Source of the DNA: Alphaproteobacteria bacterium
Lineage (GTDB): Bacteria > Pseudomonadota > Alphaproteobacteria > Rs-D84 > CACZYB01
Assembly (NCBI GenBank): GCA_017938435.1
Contig: JAGBBO010000038.1
Location: forward strand, 1 to 64,000
Length of the DNA: 64,000 nucleotides
Reading direction: 5' to 3'
Below the pieces are notes generated by a model. It made no database searches and was not told the DNA's origin. It saw only the letters and a list, made by a program, of their open reading frames with translations. Below are positions 5,032-12,263 of the stretch, piece after piece; positions within the stretch are counted from its first letter, which is position 1, and each line of letters starts with the position of its first letter. Position numbers and translations under genes: made by a program.

Positions 5032-6288
5032 TTATTGATACCTCAAAGCCTCAATCGGATCTAACTTTGTCGCCTTAATCGCAGGGAAAATTCCTGATGC
5101 AATTCCAACAATAATCGCAACAGAAAACGAAATCACAACCGTCAACATAGAAATAGGCACAGATTTTTCAAGTATTACCCCCACAACCTGCGATATACCA
5201 ATACCCAAAACCATACCAACCATACTTCCAATAAACGAAATCAAAATCGCCTCCAAAAGGAATTGATAAAGTATATAAGAATTTTTCGCCCCAATAGCCT
5301 TTCTTATACCAATTTCTCTTGTCCTTTCTGTCACGGAAACAAGCATCATATTCATAATACCAATACTTCCCACAATCAATGAAATAGAGGCAATAGAAGC
5401 AAGCAAAATAGAAATATATGTTCCAACCGATTTAACTGTTTCCACCATTTCGGTCATATCATCAACCCTAAAATCATTTTCCGCCCCAGGTTTAAGTCGT
5501 CTTGATTCACGAAGTGCATTTTCAATATATCTTTTTGCCTTATTGATATTTTTATCACTATCCACCTGTGCCATAATATAATTTACACGATTAGGGATAT
5601 AACTTCCTCTAATTCTTCTACGATAAGTTGTAACTGGCATAATAACAGTTTCATCCCTGTCAACACCACCCATACCTTGACCTTTTGCCTTTAAAACACC
5701 CTTTACAATAAACGGAATATTACTTACACGCACAGTTTTTCCAATCGCACTTTCTCCACTGGGAAAAAGATTCGATTCAATAGTTTTTCCAATAAGGATA
5801 TAAGCCTGTGCCGACTTTACATCACGATCGGAAAGTCCCTCACCCCGTTCTATCTCCCATTTTCCGGTATAAAGATAGTCTGGTGTAGATGCGACAATAG
5901 ACGCCATATAATTTTCATTTCCATAAATAATTTGTGCAGTTCCATTAACAATAGGAGATACCGCCTTTATATATTTAAGTTTTTTTATTACATCAGCATC
6001 CCCTGTTTTTACAACAGATTGACCACCACTTTTCACACCTGATGTAGCAACAAATTCCGGTCTAACAAGCAAAAGATTACTTCCCATTCCTTCAAAACTA
6101 TCGTTAATCATATTTTGCACAGTTTGCCCCGCAGCAACCATAATAACAACGGCACAAACTCCAATAATAATTCCAAGGGTCGTCAAAAATGAACGAAGTT
6201 TATTTGACTTTATCGAAATCCACGACTCACGAAATACCGCACGCGACATGTGGATTTTTTGATCAATTATTTCTACATTTTTTTCCAT
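5032..6288 (-). CDS. MacB-type ABC transporter permease (MacB_PCD + FtsX domains)
   Basis: The 418-residue permease starts with a short cytosolic segment and a first membrane helix (LRSFLTTLGIIIGVCAVVIMVAAG, about 32-55). A large periplasmic MacB-like domain (about 60-285) follows, then an FtsX domain with three helices (about 295-410) containing RTREIGIRKAIGAK. It would use the ATPase encoded upstream to drive conformational changes of the periplasmic domain in a tripartite pump. Its ATG overlaps the ATPase stop (TAATG), indicating translational coupling. In enterobacterial MacB the ATPase and permease are one chain; here they are split. Confidence 0.92.
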   Translation of the reverse strand: MEKNVEIIDQKIHMSRAVFRESWISIKSNKLRSFLTTLGIIIGVCAVVIMVAAGQTVQNMINDSFEGMGSNLLLVRPEFVATSGVKSGGQSVVKTGDADVIKKLKYIKAVSPIVNGTAQIIYGNENYMASIVASTPDYLYTGKWEIERGEGLSDRDVKSAQAYILIGKTIESNLFPSGESAIGKTVRVSNIPFIVKGVLKAKGQGMGGVDRDETVIMPVTTYRRRIRGSYIPNRVNYIMAQVDSDKNINKAKRYIENALRESRRLKPGAENDFRVDDMTEMVETVKSVGTYISILLASIASISLIVGSIGIMNMMLVSVTERTREIGIRKAIGAKNSYILYQFLLEAILISFIGSMVGMVLGIGISQVVGVILEKSVPISMLTVVISFSVAIIVGIASGIFPAIKATKLDPIEALRYQ

Positions 6289-6995
6289 TATCTTTTTCCC
6301 TTAAATTCACTAACTGGACCATCATAATGAACAACCCCATCCACAATATAAATAAGTCGCTTTGCAAAATCTGCAATATCAGGTTCATGCGTAACAAGGA
6401 CAATAGTTTTTCCATCCTCGTTTAATTTTTGGAAAAGGTTCATAATTTCAACCGAAGTTTTAGTATCCAAATTTCCTGTTGGTTCATCTGCTAAAATAAG
6501 TTTTGGATTATTGACAAGTGCGCGTGCAATCGCAACCCTTTGTTGCATACCACCCGAAATCTGGCTTGGAAATCTTTCTACAAAATTTTGAAGTCCAACA
6601 TGGGAAAGCATTTCTTCTGCCTTTTTATGTTGTTCATCCAAACCATACCCAGCATAAATAAGTGGAATTGAAACATTATCAAGCAAAGTTCTTTTCATTA
6701 AAAGATTAAAACCCTGAAATACAAAACCAATTTTTTCACTCCGAACATTGGCAAGTTGATCTTCATTCATACCTGATACTACCTCACCACCAATTTTATA
6801 CACACCAGATGTTGGTGTATCAAGACAGCCCAGCGTGTTCATCAAGGTTGATTTACCACTTCCACTTGGTCCCATAATTGCAACAAATTCACCCTCTTCT
6901 ATTGAAAAATTTACATCCTTTAAAACAGGATACGGATCCCCAATAGCCATAGGATAACTTTTATATAAATGTTCAACTTCTATAACTTTTGCCAT
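6288..6995 (-). CDS. MacB/LolD-type ABC transporter ATP-binding protein
   Basis: The 235-residue ATPase has Walker A GPSGSGKST (42-50), the ABC signature SGGMQQR, Walker B LILADEPTGNLD and the H-loop VTHEPD. The length and the insertion between Walker A and the signature fit the MacB/LolD/FtsE subfamily, which powers mechanotransmission rather than classical import. It sits between macA-type (9 nt upstream) and permease genes in a four-gene operon. Confidence 0.93.
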   Translation of the reverse strand: MAKVIEVEHLYKSYPMAIGDPYPVLKDVNFSIEEGEFVAIMGPSGSGKSTLMNTLGCLDTPTSGVYKIGGEVVSGMNEDQLANVRSEKIGFVFQGFNLLMKRTLLDNVSIPLIYAGYGLDEQHKKAEEMLSHVGLQNFVERFPSQISGGMQQRVAIARALVNNPKLILADEPTGNLDTKTSVEIMNLFQKLNEDGKTIVLVTHEPDIADFAKRLIYIVDGVVHYDGPVSEFKGKR

Positions 6996-7004
6996 AGGCT
7001 TTTC

Positions 7005-8213
7005 CTACATCATCGGACCGCGTCGTCTTCCACCACCAAAGGCAGATGATTTTGACTTTTTGGCTTTAAGTTCGCCATCATAAACGAAATCAGAAATAAT
7101 TATATCCCCATCTTTAAGTTCAGAAGAAGTAATTTCCGTAATTGCACCATTTGTAATACCTTTTACTATTTTAACAGCTTTTATATCCTTATCACCCTTT
7201 TTAAAAGTATAAACAAATGTTTCATTAGGAAGCAAAGATTTATCTTCTGGATAAATTATATAACTTTGCAACGCATCATCAGGTTTAAACTGCAAAACAT
7301 AATTTTCCACAGTCAATACATTATTTTTTCGTAATGTATCAACATCAACAAACGCAGTCATCCCAGGAAGAAGTTTTCCCTCTTTATTATCAATTTTAAT
7401 TATAACATTATAGATAACAACATTTTGTTCTGTTGTTGGGTTAAGTCTAACTTGATCTACAACACCATGAAATGTTTCAACAGGAAAGGCATCAACCGTA
7501 AAATCTACATTCTGTCCTTTCTTAATATTTCCAATATCGGCCTCGGAAATACTTGCTTCTATCTGCATTTTAGTTAAATCTTCTGCAATAGTAAAAAGTG
7601 TCGGTGCAGAAAAAGATGATGCAATAGTTTGTCCTTCTTCCACATCCCTAGAAATCACAACACCTGAAACCGGAGATTTAATTTCTGCATACTCAATATT
7701 GCGTTTACTTCTCTCATTATTTGCCCTTGCCGCAATATAATCTGCTTCGGCACTTGTTAAATCAGTAATTACCTGATCAAGTTCAAGTTTGGCAATATAC
7801 CCTTCATTAAACAAAGCCTCTGTTCTATCCTTATCAAGTTTAGCCAAATCATACCTTGCCTTTGCCTGAGCCATTTTTGCCTCAGTCGAATTTATATCTT
7901 CAATAAGTAAGGATTTATCAATCTGTGCCAAAAGCTGTCCCGTTTTTACATCATCATTGTAATCGACATAGATTTTATCAATAATTCCAGAAACCTGTGC
8001 ACCAACAGAAACCACATTAACTGGATTTATTTTCCCAGTCGCACTAACTGATGAATGAACATCTTGATAAGACAACTTTGCAAACTCAAAAAGTTCAGGT
8101 TTAAGGGTAAGTGTTTTATTCCTACCAAAGAAAAGTTTGTAAATTCCAAAAACTGAAACGGCACCAACTGTCCAAATTAAAACTTTCTTTTTATTTATAT
8201 TTTTTAAAATCAT
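7005..8213 (-). CDS. macA: MacA-like periplasmic adaptor (HlyD/RND membrane-fusion family)
   Basis: The 402-residue protein has one N-terminal membrane helix (about 10-28). It then has the split biotinyl-lipoyl hairpin (VSVGAQVSGIIDKIYVDYNDDVKTGQLLAQID ... IKSPVSGVVISRDVEEGQTIASS), a coiled-coil hairpin (about 100-165) and a beta-barrel domain. The MacA-type signature of two-part lipoyl domain plus membrane anchor is clear. It links the inner-membrane ABC pair to the TolC-like channel encoded immediately upstream (15 nt). The C-terminus ends in a Gly/Arg-rich tail. Confidence 0.9.
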   Translation of the reverse strand: MILKNINKKKVLIWTVGAVSVFGIYKLFFGRNKTLTLKPELFEFAKLSYQDVHSSVSATGKINPVNVVSVGAQVSGIIDKIYVDYNDDVKTGQLLAQIDKSLLIEDINSTEAKMAQAKARYDLAKLDKDRTEALFNEGYIAKLELDQVITDLTSAEADYIAARANNERSKRNIEYAEIKSPVSGVVISRDVEEGQTIASSFSAPTLFTIAEDLTKMQIEASISEADIGNIKKGQNVDFTVDAFPVETFHGVVDQVRLNPTTEQNVVIYNVIIKIDNKEGKLLPGMTAFVDVDTLRKNNVLTVENYVLQFKPDDALQSYIIYPEDKSLLPNETFVYTFKKGDKDIKAVKIVKGITNGAITEITSSELKDGDIIISDFVYDGELKAKKSKSSAFGGGRRRGPMM

Positions 8214-8228
8214 TTACCCTCCATTATT

Positions 8229-9608
8229 TTATTTAAATTCGCCAAGGTTTTTCAAACTAAGTTCACCCGCAGACTTTAACAATGCAATCTTCGCAGTATA
8301 AAGCCCATATTGTGCAGAAATAAGTTCTTGTCTAGCAGAAAGAAGTTTTGATTGTGCTTCCATAAGGCTTATAATATCACCCTTTCCTGCCCTAAATGAA
8401 CCAAGTGCAACTTTTTCATTTTCTACGGCACTTTCAAAAAGTTTTTTAGCAATAGACAATGCCTTTACACTTGTTTTATAACCATTATATGCAGTAACAA
8501 CACTAAGTTCTACATCTTGTTCTAATTGTTTTAATTCTTCCTTGTCTGCAGCATACTGATATTTTGCATTTCGTAAAGAATAAGTATTCTCAAATCCTGT
8601 AAATATAGGCATTGTCACCTTTACACCCAAAGCCCAAGAATCTCTATCCCTATCCAAATTATGACTATCTGGCTCATCATCATACCATGATTTAGAACCA
8701 AATGCAGAAATTGTTGGAAAATATGTTGCACTTGCAGAACGAACATTTGCATAACTTGCTTTAACAGCAGCAGCCTTTGCCTGTAAATCAGGTCGTTTTA
8801 ACATTGCAATTCTAACAATTTCATCAACAGATTTTGAAATAAGTTCATCCGTTGTATCAGCAAATGTTTGTGAAAGTTTTATTTCTTGTGAAGGAGGAAG
8901 TCCCAAATAACTTGCCAATTTTGCATTTGCAACCTTTACAACTTGCTCCTGTTTTGTCACTTGAAGTTGAGCTTGTGCATACGCTGTTTCAGCCTGCAAA
9001 GTATCTGCCTTTGATGACATTCCAAGTTCAAATTTTTTACTTGCAAGTTCAAATGATTTCAAATTTGCATCTTCATTGGCCTTTAATGCAGCCAATTCCT
9101 CAACCGAAGAAAGTGCATCATAATATGCAACAATAGTATTATATGCTACTTGTTGCAAAGTATTATTGTATTGAAAATTCATAGAATTCATAGATTGAAA
9201 AGTTTTTTCAACATTGGATTCTCTTTTTCCAAAATCATACAAAAGCCAACTTAATGACAACCCAGCATCAGCACCTTTTCTAATAACTTCACCTGTTGGT
9301 TCAACAGTGTAATCTTTTGAATTAGATTTTGAATATTCTGCACTTGCAGAAATTTGTGGAAGATATGAGCCCAAAGTTCTTTTATATGCAGTTTCACCAA
9401 CTTTTGTTGAAAGCCACGCTTGTCTTGTTGTTGGATTATTACACATAGCAAGTTCAATCACATCAGCCAAATTCAAAGCATCCTTTGTAACATCTTTTGA
9501 AATATTACAAGAATTACTTATTGATATATTTTTATTTTCTACATTTTCACCAGCCATAGCATTTGTTGATAAAAGCAATGCCAAAGCAAATATTGATACT
9601 TTTTTCAT
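8229..9608 (-). CDS. tolC: TolC-family outer-membrane efflux protein
   Basis: The 459-residue product has a signal peptide (1-19, ...TNAMA) and two repeated halves of the outer-membrane efflux family. Each half has long helices bracketing short strands (e.g. YLPQISASAEYSKS in the first, YFPTISAFGSKSW in the second). It is the first gene of a tolC-macA-ATPase-permease operon, so a complete tripartite exporter is encoded in one transcript. Substrate (macrolide, peptide, siderophore or lipid) cannot be told from sequence. Confidence 0.9.
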   Translation of the reverse strand: MKKVSIFALALLLSTNAMAGENVENKNISISNSCNISKDVTKDALNLADVIELAMCNNPTTRQAWLSTKVGETAYKRTLGSYLPQISASAEYSKSNSKDYTVEPTGEVIRKGADAGLSLSWLLYDFGKRESNVEKTFQSMNSMNFQYNNTLQQVAYNTIVAYYDALSSVEELAALKANEDANLKSFELASKKFELGMSSKADTLQAETAYAQAQLQVTKQEQVVKVANAKLASYLGLPPSQEIKLSQTFADTTDELISKSVDEIVRIAMLKRPDLQAKAAAVKASYANVRSASATYFPTISAFGSKSWYDDEPDSHNLDRDRDSWALGVKVTMPIFTGFENTYSLRNAKYQYAADKEELKQLEQDVELSVVTAYNGYKTSVKALSIAKKLFESAVENEKVALGSFRAGKGDIISLMEAQSKLLSARQELISAQYGLYTAKIALLKSAGELSLKNLGEFK

Positions 9609-9785: not shown

Positions 9786-11417
9786 TTAATTTGCTGAATT
9801 TATAGCATCAAGACATTCTTTTGCCATATCAGCATCTTTTGAAACTTTTGCAATCGCAGTTGCAGAAAGCACTATTGATGCACCAGATGTTCCAGCAGTA
9901 ACACCTGCCAAAATATTTGTTGTCAAATTCAATGCCTTTTCTTTCTTTTTTCCACTTTCAGAATTGTCATTTCTTGTCTTATCAGTATTTGCTAAAACAG
10001 ATGTAACAGTTCCAGCACCCGCAGTTCCAACTCCAATAGCAGATACTATTCCTGATGCAGTCATAGATGTTGCAACTTTTTTCATATTATCAACATCAAA
10101 TGACGAACATTTTTCTGAAATATTAGATGCAAGTTTATATGTTGCATCGTCTTTTGAAAAATCTTCTGCTTCAAACATAGCTTTAATTATTTTTAATTTT
10201 TCAATCTTAGCATTACATGCAGCCATTCTATTTACCAAAGTTTTTGCTCTACCTGATGAAACAAACGAAGAAAGTGTTGAAACACCAGATGTAGCAGTTG
10301 CACCAGCCATAAGTCCAGTTCTTACATTACCCAAAGTTTTTGAAGTTTTTTCATCTTTTGCATTTTGAACTTTGTTTCTTGCATTAACTTCATCAACTTT
10401 TGCTTGTAATGTTACTTCATTATCTTTTTCTGCATCATAAGAAGCAAGTCTTTCAGATAACATTCCAGTATTAACAACGAATGAATGAGGTTCAATTTTT
10501 TGTAATGCATCATATTGTTGTCTAAGAATACTTGCATTAACCGAAGATCCTTCTTCAAAAGGATTTAAAAATTTTCCACCATTTCTAGCTACAACATACC
10601 TTAAATATAAGTTATCTATCTTTTTTGCTTCTTCAATCATTTTTTCATTATCTTCAGCATTTTTAGCTTCATCAAAAGCAAACCATGCTTCACCAGCCTC
10701 ATCTTTTACTTCATCAATTTCTTCTTGTGTAAGTTCAGATTTTAGCAAATCAATTTCTTGACTATTTTCGATTCTTTTATCAGTCACACCTTTTACAATA
10801 CCAACAGCCAATGCACCACCAGCAGCCAATGTTCCCAAACCTGATGATACTGTTGTTGCAGTAGCCCAACCTTTTATAATATCCAAATCCTCTTCGATTC
10901 CAGAACATGCACTTGATGCTTCTGTCAATGCTTTTGCAAATTCAGTTTTAACAACATTTAATGCTTCTGCATTTGCAAGTCTTGCTGTTAAATCTGCTGT
11001 ATTTCTTGCAGCAATTTGTTCTTCAGAAAGTTCTGTTCCATCTTCATTTATCACATTTGTTTCTGTATTACCATCAGAAAAAGTTTTTGTCACTGTCACA
11101 GTTCCATCTTCGTTTGAAACAGTATTTGTTGATACCAATCTTGCAGTTTCAACAGTTTCTGTTGCTGGCTCTGTTACTTCTGTTACTATTTCAGTTTCTG
11201 TATTTTGTGTAGTTGTCAATTCACTACTATTAGAAATATTATTCATTCCTGCCATAGAATTATTATTTGTTGCATTTGTTGCAGCCCTTTTATTTCCTGT
11301 TCTAAATGCACGAGCAGCAACCCTTTTATTTCGTCCTGCCTCTGCTGTTAATGGGAAAACAAAAAGTTCATTCAAAACCAATGCACTTAATGTAATCATA
11401 CTTATTTTGCTTTTCAT
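9786..11417 (-). CDS. exported protein with four Gly/Ala/Ser-rich hydrophobic segments, unknown function
   Basis: This 543-residue protein has a signal-like N-terminus (MKSKISMITLSALVLNELFVFPLTAEA). A Thr/Glu/Asn-rich stretch (about 45-140) follows, then helical regions broken by four similar hydrophobic, small-residue segments. These begin GLGTLAAGGALAVGIV, GLMAGATATSGVSTL, GIVSAIGVGTAGAGTV and ILAGVTAGTSGASIVL, each followed by a charged Lys/Asn/Asp patch. They resemble glycine-zipper hairpins. Four cysteines occur in pairs near helix ends. No family recognised; a surface or periplasmic membrane-inserting protein is possible. AAAAAAAGGAG precedes the ATG. It follows the structured RNA at 11456-11690 on the same strand. 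Confidence 0.7.
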   Translation of the reverse strand: MKSKISMITLSALVLNELFVFPLTAEAGRNKRVAARAFRTGNKRAATNATNNNSMAGMNNISNSSELTTTQNTETEIVTEVTEPATETVETARLVSTNTVSNEDGTVTVTKTFSDGNTETNVINEDGTELSEEQIAARNTADLTARLANAEALNVVKTEFAKALTEASSACSGIEEDLDIIKGWATATTVSSGLGTLAAGGALAVGIVKGVTDKRIENSQEIDLLKSELTQEEIDEVKDEAGEAWFAFDEAKNAEDNEKMIEEAKKIDNLYLRYVVARNGGKFLNPFEEGSSVNASILRQQYDALQKIEPHSFVVNTGMLSERLASYDAEKDNEVTLQAKVDEVNARNKVQNAKDEKTSKTLGNVRTGLMAGATATSGVSTLSSFVSSGRAKTLVNRMAACNAKIEKLKIIKAMFEAEDFSKDDATYKLASNISEKCSSFDVDNMKKVATSMTASGIVSAIGVGTAGAGTVTSVLANTDKTRNDNSESGKKKEKALNLTTNILAGVTAGTSGASIVLSATAIAKVSKDADMAKECLDAINSAN

Positions 11418-11455
11418 AAAAAACTCCTTTTTTTAAAATTAACCAAAGTATCGTC

Positions 11456-11690
11456 AAAAAAGGCGGGGAGTTCGAAAGTCATATAACCTGAAACGACTTC
11501 TTTGGTCTTTAAGAAGATTTTCCTTTCAAAGAAAAGCCTCTCTGGACATACACCAAAGACTCCCCATTATGATTTATGGGGAAACTTAACGGGGCATAAC
11601 ACAGAAATTATGCCACGCAGGTTAATTTTGAGCTTTCGACAGCCCGTATCATCTCTGATACTAGGAACAAGAACCTTCTCCTATTCCATA
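11456..11690 (-). ncRNA. candidate structured RNA, unidentified class (leader or independent sRNA)
   Basis: The 380-nt gap between the 543-residue gene and dut holds no credible protein but much paired sequence. The long-range helix TCGAAAG (11472-11478)/CTTTCGA (11633-11639) encloses TAACCTG (11484-11490)/CAGGTTA (11618-11624). That in turn encloses CTTTGGT (11500-11506)/ACCAAAG (11552-11558) and two hairpins, CCCCAT/ATGGGG (11562-11581) and GGCATAA/TTATGCC (11593-11614). A separate hairpin GTATCA/TGATAC (11646-11661) has a GAGA (GNRA) loop only on the minus strand. On that strand there is a good promoter at 11725-11697 and six T residues at 11461-11456. The tmRNA, RNase P, SRP and 6S core motifs were looked for and not found. 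Confidence 0.6.
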
Positions 11691-11696
11691 CTAGAA

Positions 11697-11725
11697 ATAA
11701 TATCATATTTTTGGTTATATGTAAA
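11697..11725 (-). promoter_or_regulatory. promoter of the structured RNA
   Basis: Minus strand: TTTACA (11725-11720), 17-nt spacer, TATTAT (11702-11697); start expected near 11690. Confidence 0.6.
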
Positions 11726-11798: not shown

Positions 11799-12263
11799 AT
11801 GCCAAAAGTAAATGCAAAAATTTTATATCTTCCAAATTATGATAAATCATGGGGACCTATGACTTATGCTCATACAACTGATACTGGATTCGATATTCGT
11901 GCATGCAACACCGATGATATTATTGTAAAAAAAGGTGAACGCGTTATCGTCCCAGCGGGATTCAAAATTATGCCACAAGAAGGATTCGCTTTTCAAATCC
12001 GTGCCAGAAGTGGCAACGCTTTCAAACTGGGACTTTCTATGCCAAATGGTCTTGGCACAATAGACAATGGCTATCTTGGAGAAATAGGAGTTTTAATTGT
12101 AAATGTTGGAAACGAACCTTTTACCATCACCCGCGGTATGAAAATCGCCCAAGGTGTTGTTGAACCAGTTTATCAATTCGAATTCGAAGAAGTTTTCGAT
12201 GAAAAAGATTTAGGTCCATCCGACCGAGGCAACGGCGGATTCGGTTCTACTGGCACAAAATAA
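11799..12263 (+). CDS. dut: deoxyuridine 5'-triphosphate nucleotidohydrolase (dUTPase)
   Basis: The 154-residue protein contains all five motifs of trimeric dUTPases: DTGFDI (28-33), RARSG (68-72), GTIDNGYLGE (86-95, with the catalytic Asp), RGMKIAQ (112-118) and the C-terminal glycine-rich RGNGGFGSTG (143-152). It converts dUTP to dUMP and pyrophosphate, keeping uracil out of DNA and feeding dTMP synthesis. AAAAGGAG precedes the ATG. It is slightly longer than the E. coli enzyme owing to an N-terminal extension. Confidence 0.96.
   Translation: MPKVNAKILYLPNYDKSWGPMTYAHTTDTGFDIRACNTDDIIVKKGERVIVPAGFKIMPQEGFAFQIRARSGNAFKLGLSMPNGLGTIDNGYLGEIGVLIVNVGNEPFTITRGMKIAQGVVEPVYQFEFEEVFDEKDLGPSDRGNGGFGSTGTK

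Follow-up and report, generated by a model that had tools for sequence, protein, structure and literature searches.

The window, by which we mean the complete stretch of 64,000 nucleotides that was analysed, carries on its minus strand a compact, folded RNA of roughly 220 nt (about 11465-11690). Between its end and the start codon of the next gene lie 47 nt; this gene (9786..11417, minus strand) encodes an exported protein of 543 aa that matches no Pfam family, is presumed to be the regulated gene and is preceded by the Shine-Dalgarno sequence AAGGAGU (11423..11429, minus strand). Further downstream on the same strand, genes for MacB-like ABC transporter, HlyD-type and OEP (TolC-like) efflux proteins occupy 5032-9608, and on the opposite strand a dUTPase gene (11799-12263, plus strand) stands head to head with the RNA. 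A sigma70-like promoter (11697..11725, minus strand), proposed in the first-pass annotation of this DNA, is indeed present in the sequence, with TTTACA as -35 element (11720-11725), TATTAT as -10 element (11697-11702) and a spacer of 17 nt. It recurs in relatives, where a promoter-like motif is found upstream of hairpin H2 at a similar distance (p = 1e-13 compared to mononucleotide shuffles). The multi-helix RNA claimed at the same place is likewise borne out by its folding energy, which is far more favourable than that of shuffled sequences (z = -5.5, or -4.9 with the start codon included); none of the shuffles folded equally well.

When the copies in relatives are read side by side, one common architecture becomes visible, in the 5' to 3' order promoter, 5' hairpin, H1, H2, PK2 strand, P3, P4, PL 5' strand, P5, P6, segment K and PL 3' strand. 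In the window copy, where all parts lie on the minus strand, the predicted fold begins with the 5' hairpin P0 (11664..11687) directly 3' of the predicted transcription start; a hairpin at this position is visible in most copies of the genus, as judged by reading these copies and not by covariation. Hairpin H1 (GUAUCAGAGAUGAUAC, 11646..11661) also comes from the fold, and relatives have at this place a hairpin with varying sequence. H2 (GGGC-UGUCGAAA-GCUC, 11630..11645) has an 8-nt loop that pairs with segment K just before the PL 3' strand to give PK1, which in the window joins UCGAAA (11634..11639) with UUUCGA (11472..11477). PK2 is formed between UAACCUG (11618..11624) and CAGGUUA (11484-11490) in the loop of hairpin P6 (GUCGU/AUGAC, 11478..11497). 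P3 (11593..11614) is taken from the fold, P4 (11562..11581) pairs CCCCAU with AUGGGG, and PL, the closing helix around hairpins P5 and P6, combines GGGGAGU (11559..11565), placed from alignments, with ACUCCCC (11465..11471), placed from alignments and covariation. P5 (11500..11558) contains a conserved internal loop, GUAUGUYCAG/UUAAAG. The two nested helices of 7 + 7 bp that had been described earlier correspond to PK1 and PK2 and show strong covariation, but both are pseudoknots relative to PL, a helix that had been missed. Two smaller elements of that description, a GNRA loop (GAGA of H1) and a run of six U residues (in 11452-11461), are present in the window and are not general in the family.

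The first-pass annotation had made its proposal dependent on compensatory changes among relatives, and such changes were found in 25 of the 32 pairs of a 30-sequence alignment, in which 94.5% of the cells are paired. The covariation score of 0.573, compared to 0.235 after shuffling, was reached by 0 of 500 shuffles, and the signal was lost when the alignment was slid by one column. Compensatory changes occur in five of five pairs of the lower and four of four pairs of the upper stem of P5, in three of four pairs of P6, and in three of four pairs of H2 and four of five pairs of PK1, the latter two with 100% of the cells paired; it must be mentioned that H2 was picked partly by its match in PK1, which biases the H2 and PK1 figures of this alignment towards structure. 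An assay free of this selection bias, in which the same search was applied to matched and mismatched pairs, revealed that the H2 loops fit their own K far better than the K of other copies (p = 6e-36). For PK2, the comparison of own versus cross complementarity resulted in p = 1e-37 with a negative shifted control, on copies that had been selected for H2 and PK1 and not for PK2. All p values given here are inflated, because paralogous copies in one genome are not independent, and weak or degenerate copies are under-represented, because the loci were selected by model score. Of the two alternative pairings that had been proposed, CUUUGGU/ACCAAAG is real and belongs to P5, but GUCUUU/AAAGAC found no comparative support.

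By blastn, copies were detected in the genome of the window and in seven further genomes from its genus and family. A covariance model built from the 3' half of the RNA, here called R1, found seven copies in the 1.1-Mb genome of the window, matched 165 of the 201 genomes of the order with 1-21 copies per genome, and matched 23 of the 289 genomes sampled across the class. With a class member as blastn query, 267 plasmid records were obtained, mainly from Agrobacterium and Rhizobium; the window RNA gave no blastn match in plasmids, and a strict window pattern gave none in a scan of viral contigs. Judged by these sequence comparisons, the RNA is real and part of a very widespread multi-copy family. 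A single match of the bare pattern in a genome collection, in Paenibacillus, was set aside as probable chance, since it lies approximately 150 nt after a TPP riboswitch and apparently within coding sequence.

The first-pass annotation had seen no core motifs of tmRNA, RNase P, SRP and 6S RNA; a search of 4227 Rfam families yielded no gathering-level match for the window RNA, and nothing relevant was found at E <= 10, including 6S RNA, RNase P, SRP and HEARO. A divergent tmRNA was also considered; the alpha_tmRNA model (RF01849) has no match in the window, and the alpha-type tmRNA of this genome sits on its contig C37, so that the idea was rejected. Its alpha type points to Alphaproteobacteria as the likely source. 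The earlier assignment to an unknown class has to be revised, as the multi-copy family is linked to sRNA-Xcc1 (RF02221). The RF02221 model matches neither the window nor its genome even at E <= 10 (gathering threshold 53 bits), and the window copy, being below the Rfam cut-off, is not to be labelled RF02221. In rhizobial relatives, the same model produces a sub-threshold match to the 3' half that is full-length (1-87) and correctly oriented; it scores 32.6 bits at a Bradyrhizobium plasmid site (E = 4e-4 in 301 nt) and 39.7 bits in an order-mate of the window's genome (G014), both below gathering. R1 matches plasmid copies of Paracoccus, Bradyrhizobium and Afipia with E values down to 1e-10, coincides with RF02221 at the same Bradyrhizobium site on the same strand, and, with E of 0.1-0.8, reaches three RF02221 members in the correct position and orientation. 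The 87-nt RF02221 model spans only the 3' half, from PL onward; upstream of the modelled part, genuine RF02221 members possess H2 and PK1 (p = 5e-15), and PK2 could be detected in them as well (p = 5e-10). The sites shared by R1 and RF02221, together with H2, PK1 and PK2 in both sets, make the common descent of the whole architecture well supported at the sequence level. The likeness includes PL, P5 and P6 of the relatives, which align over the full RF02221 model, the upstream elements, the multiple copies and the position upstream of genes. The window family differs in its own P5 internal loop and in preceding surface-protein genes, whereas RF02221 members precede antirepressors or SymE; moreover, window relatives use a terminator overlapping PL, whereas RF02221 members use a pairing of P6 with the translation start.

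ORFs in the alpha set were predicted with a simple script; counted within 350 nt, the next ORF shares the strand of the RNA in 44 cases and lies on the opposite one in 6 (p = 3e-8), and upstream ORFs are unbiased (32:28). The first-pass annotation had allowed for a leader or a separate RNA; the leader is favoured, because the same-strand bias exists downstream and not upstream. With a strict ORF caller, the downstream bias in the RF02221 set is weaker (15:5, p = 0.04). A signal-peptide-like N-terminus was assigned by a simple hydrophobicity score to 63% of the alpha-set downstream proteins compared to 28% of control ORFs, and Pfam recognised glycosyltransferases (GT2), OMP, Opacity and pilins (PilS) among the former. 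RF02221 members are found in phages, plasmids and integrons and precede Rha, Bro-N, P22_AR_N and KilA-N antirepressors as well as SymE. In the phages Aaphi23, PhiR5_2 and 4316, an annotated antirepressor or KilA-N gene starts approximately 40-50 nt after the match, and in Stenotrophomonas phage Smp131 the match is overlapped by an annotated antirepressor CDS. In E. coli, 159 of 5426 complete genomes contain the prophage leader region, and the matches listed have an annotated antirepressor. Annotated copies also precede traM in Agrobacterium salinitolerans and, in Afipia and Bradyrhizobium, a group of genes that includes one for a RES-family protein. For some copies the downstream gene is not obvious or is 220-310 nt away. 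In the window's genome, loci L073-L077 precede short Cys-rich exported proteins at this distance of 220-310 nt; their near-identical signal peptides (MKKLLLIALLLSGGVAHSAT...) were noted, and the proteins are suggested to form an amplified surface-protein family.

The literature reports seven sRNA-Xcc1 copies in Xylella (PMC12189769) and fifteen in Aeromonas salmonicida (PMC8780938), and places sRNA-Xcc1 upstream of symE in Xanthomonas integrons (PMC12444791). The latter arrangement resembles the SymE/SymR type I toxin-antitoxin system; however, SymR is a cis-antisense RNA, whereas the family RNA is located upstream of the gene and on its strand. In our literature search, of partial coverage, we found neither the pseudoknots nor the 5' half nor any action in cis described, and papers on antirepressors, traM or structured leaders gave no account of the element.

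Several pairings of the family compete for the same bases. The GGGG at the PL 5' strand is also part of P4, hence P4 and PL are mutually exclusive; in relatives, the P4-type match of upstream sequence to the PL 5' strand is far better than that of shuffled upstream sequence (p = 3e-36). An intrinsic terminator follows the RNA in 39 of the 89 alpha copies (mononucleotide shuffles: 1.8%). In 32 of these 39, the 5' arm of the terminator overlaps the PL 3' strand by exactly 4 nt, the last 4 nt of PL being the first 4 nt of the terminator. No terminator is present in the window copy, and only two of 43 RF02221 members have one at the 3' end. The P6 segment of RF02221 members shows complementarity to the site where translation of their own downstream gene begins (p = 2e-8), and this pairing often uses the PK2 loop bases, which makes PK2 and the pairing with the translation start exclusive. 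At the RF02221 loci L151-L189, the P6 loop has two complementary partners, the PK2 strand on its 5' side and the region around the start of the following gene; the start region hence mimics the PK2 strand, which would make a specific, testable switch for phage antirepressors. The P6-to-start pairing is absent from the alpha set (p = 0.94), where pairing of the PK strands with the downstream leader is weak (p = 0.04 and 0.11), and a 10-bp match in the window (AAAAUUAACC/GGUUAAUUUU) may be chance. Furthermore, GGAGUUU at the Shine-Dalgarno sequence of the window copy can pair with GAACUCC of K and the PL 3' strand, a pairing without statistical specificity in the genus (p = 0.12). The switch that had been considered possible is thus matched by other exclusive pairings in the family, but the pairing named for it is not the conserved one.

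Taken together, the overlap of terminator and PL, the exclusion between P4 and PL and the P6-to-start pairing suggest a switch. The RNA is probably a cis-acting 5' leader of the gene for the 543-aa protein and a divergent member of the sRNA-Xcc1 superfamily that would act as an attenuator or in a riboswitch-like manner. By comparison of sequences, H2-PK1, PK2, PL, P5, P6, the multiple copies, the same-strand upstream placement and the architecture shared with RF02221 are established; from there we infer the attenuator or riboswitch-like action. In the ON fold, PK1 and PK2 would lock the P6 loop and segment K and support PL. In the OFF fold, the PL 5' strand would be taken by P4. The released strands may then be used in three ways: in many relatives of the order and class, the freed PL 3' strand would complete the intrinsic terminator; in the window's genus, it may pair with the Shine-Dalgarno sequence (GAACUCC/GGAGUUU); and in RF02221 members, the freed P6 loop would bind where translation of the downstream gene begins. 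One logic would hold for all three, with the pseudoknotted fold as ON and released strands as OFF, a polarity that we infer. The fold might be selected by a metabolite, an ion or a protein, by temperature, by cleavage with an RNase or by an RNA that acts in trans. Three mutually exclusive helices (P4, PL and terminator), with pseudoknots that stabilise one state, are reminiscent of known riboswitches and attenuators; however, the window family is without a known ligand or Rfam riboswitch match, and its downstream genes are functionally mixed, with no common metabolic pathway. More tentatively, the superfamily could be an unrecognised class of riboswitches or protein-sensing leaders, in which phages, plasmids, toxin genes and host surface genes employ one conserved 3D fold with interchangeable outputs to sense one common cellular signal.

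The proposed cis-acting leader has to be weighed against the present view of sRNA-Xcc1, which Chen et al. 2011 describe in their title as trans-acting (as cited in PMC12444791). In Xanthomonas, Northern and RACE experiments defined an 88-nt RNA (PMC2996969), the RNA is abundant in E. coli O157:H7 with approximately 40,000 RNA-seq reads and little ribosome coverage (PMC5331693), and the family has its own promoter and, in 39 of 89 alpha copies, a terminator after the RNA. All this would suit a stand-alone trans-acting small RNA that lies upstream of genes by chance and uses the P6 loop as antisense seed for target mRNAs. However, the 88 nt represent the 3' half only, whereas the full conserved RNA exceeds 200 nt; the same-strand bias, the short gap to the next gene and downstream genes with a common theme speak against a chance location, and the P6 loop of RF02221 members fits the start of the very gene that follows it. 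Hence, we regard a stand-alone trans-acting role as unlikely.

The terminator-like hairpins, which are found inside the RNA in 39 of 89 and after it in 39 of 89 alpha copies, could also indicate a processive antitermination element, put- or EAR-like, that lets the polymerase pass them. This is still less probable, because the overlap of exactly 4 nt between PL and the downstream terminator fits a direct competition of structures, and most RF02221 members are without a 3' terminator (two of 43 have one). It is very improbable that the structure serves DNA transactions or mobility of a cassette-like mobile or recombination element instead of expression. The many copies per genome and the RF02221 members in phages, plasmids and integrons (PMC12444791) agree with such an element, but the copies diverge in sequence yet keep strand-specific loops and pairings, the order promoter-RNA-gene is fixed, and no common boundary or flanking recombinase was noticed in the loci that were read, non-systematically.

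So far, this family, which is large and abundant, has been catalogued by its 3' half only and as a trans-acting sRNA. The complete architecture, the two pseudoknots with copy-specific sequences and the steady placement before genes for antirepressors, toxins, conjugation regulators and surface proteins suggest a switch that acts in cis throughout the family. If confirmed, such a switch would account for the role of sRNA-Xcc1, offer a testable control point for prophage antirepressors and imply a large surface-gene regulon in streamlined uncultured bacteria.

Among the loci, L094 3945 (reverse orientation) has a shortened R1 match without most of P5 and is possibly degenerate or a distinct variant. 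A second subtype is represented by loci L002, L003, L013, L019, L025, L028, L030 and L031, with the 3' end AACTGCCCGGCC or AACTCTCCCGGCC and an internal terminator-like hairpin with a U run; RF02221 members have similar hairpins with U runs within the RNA.
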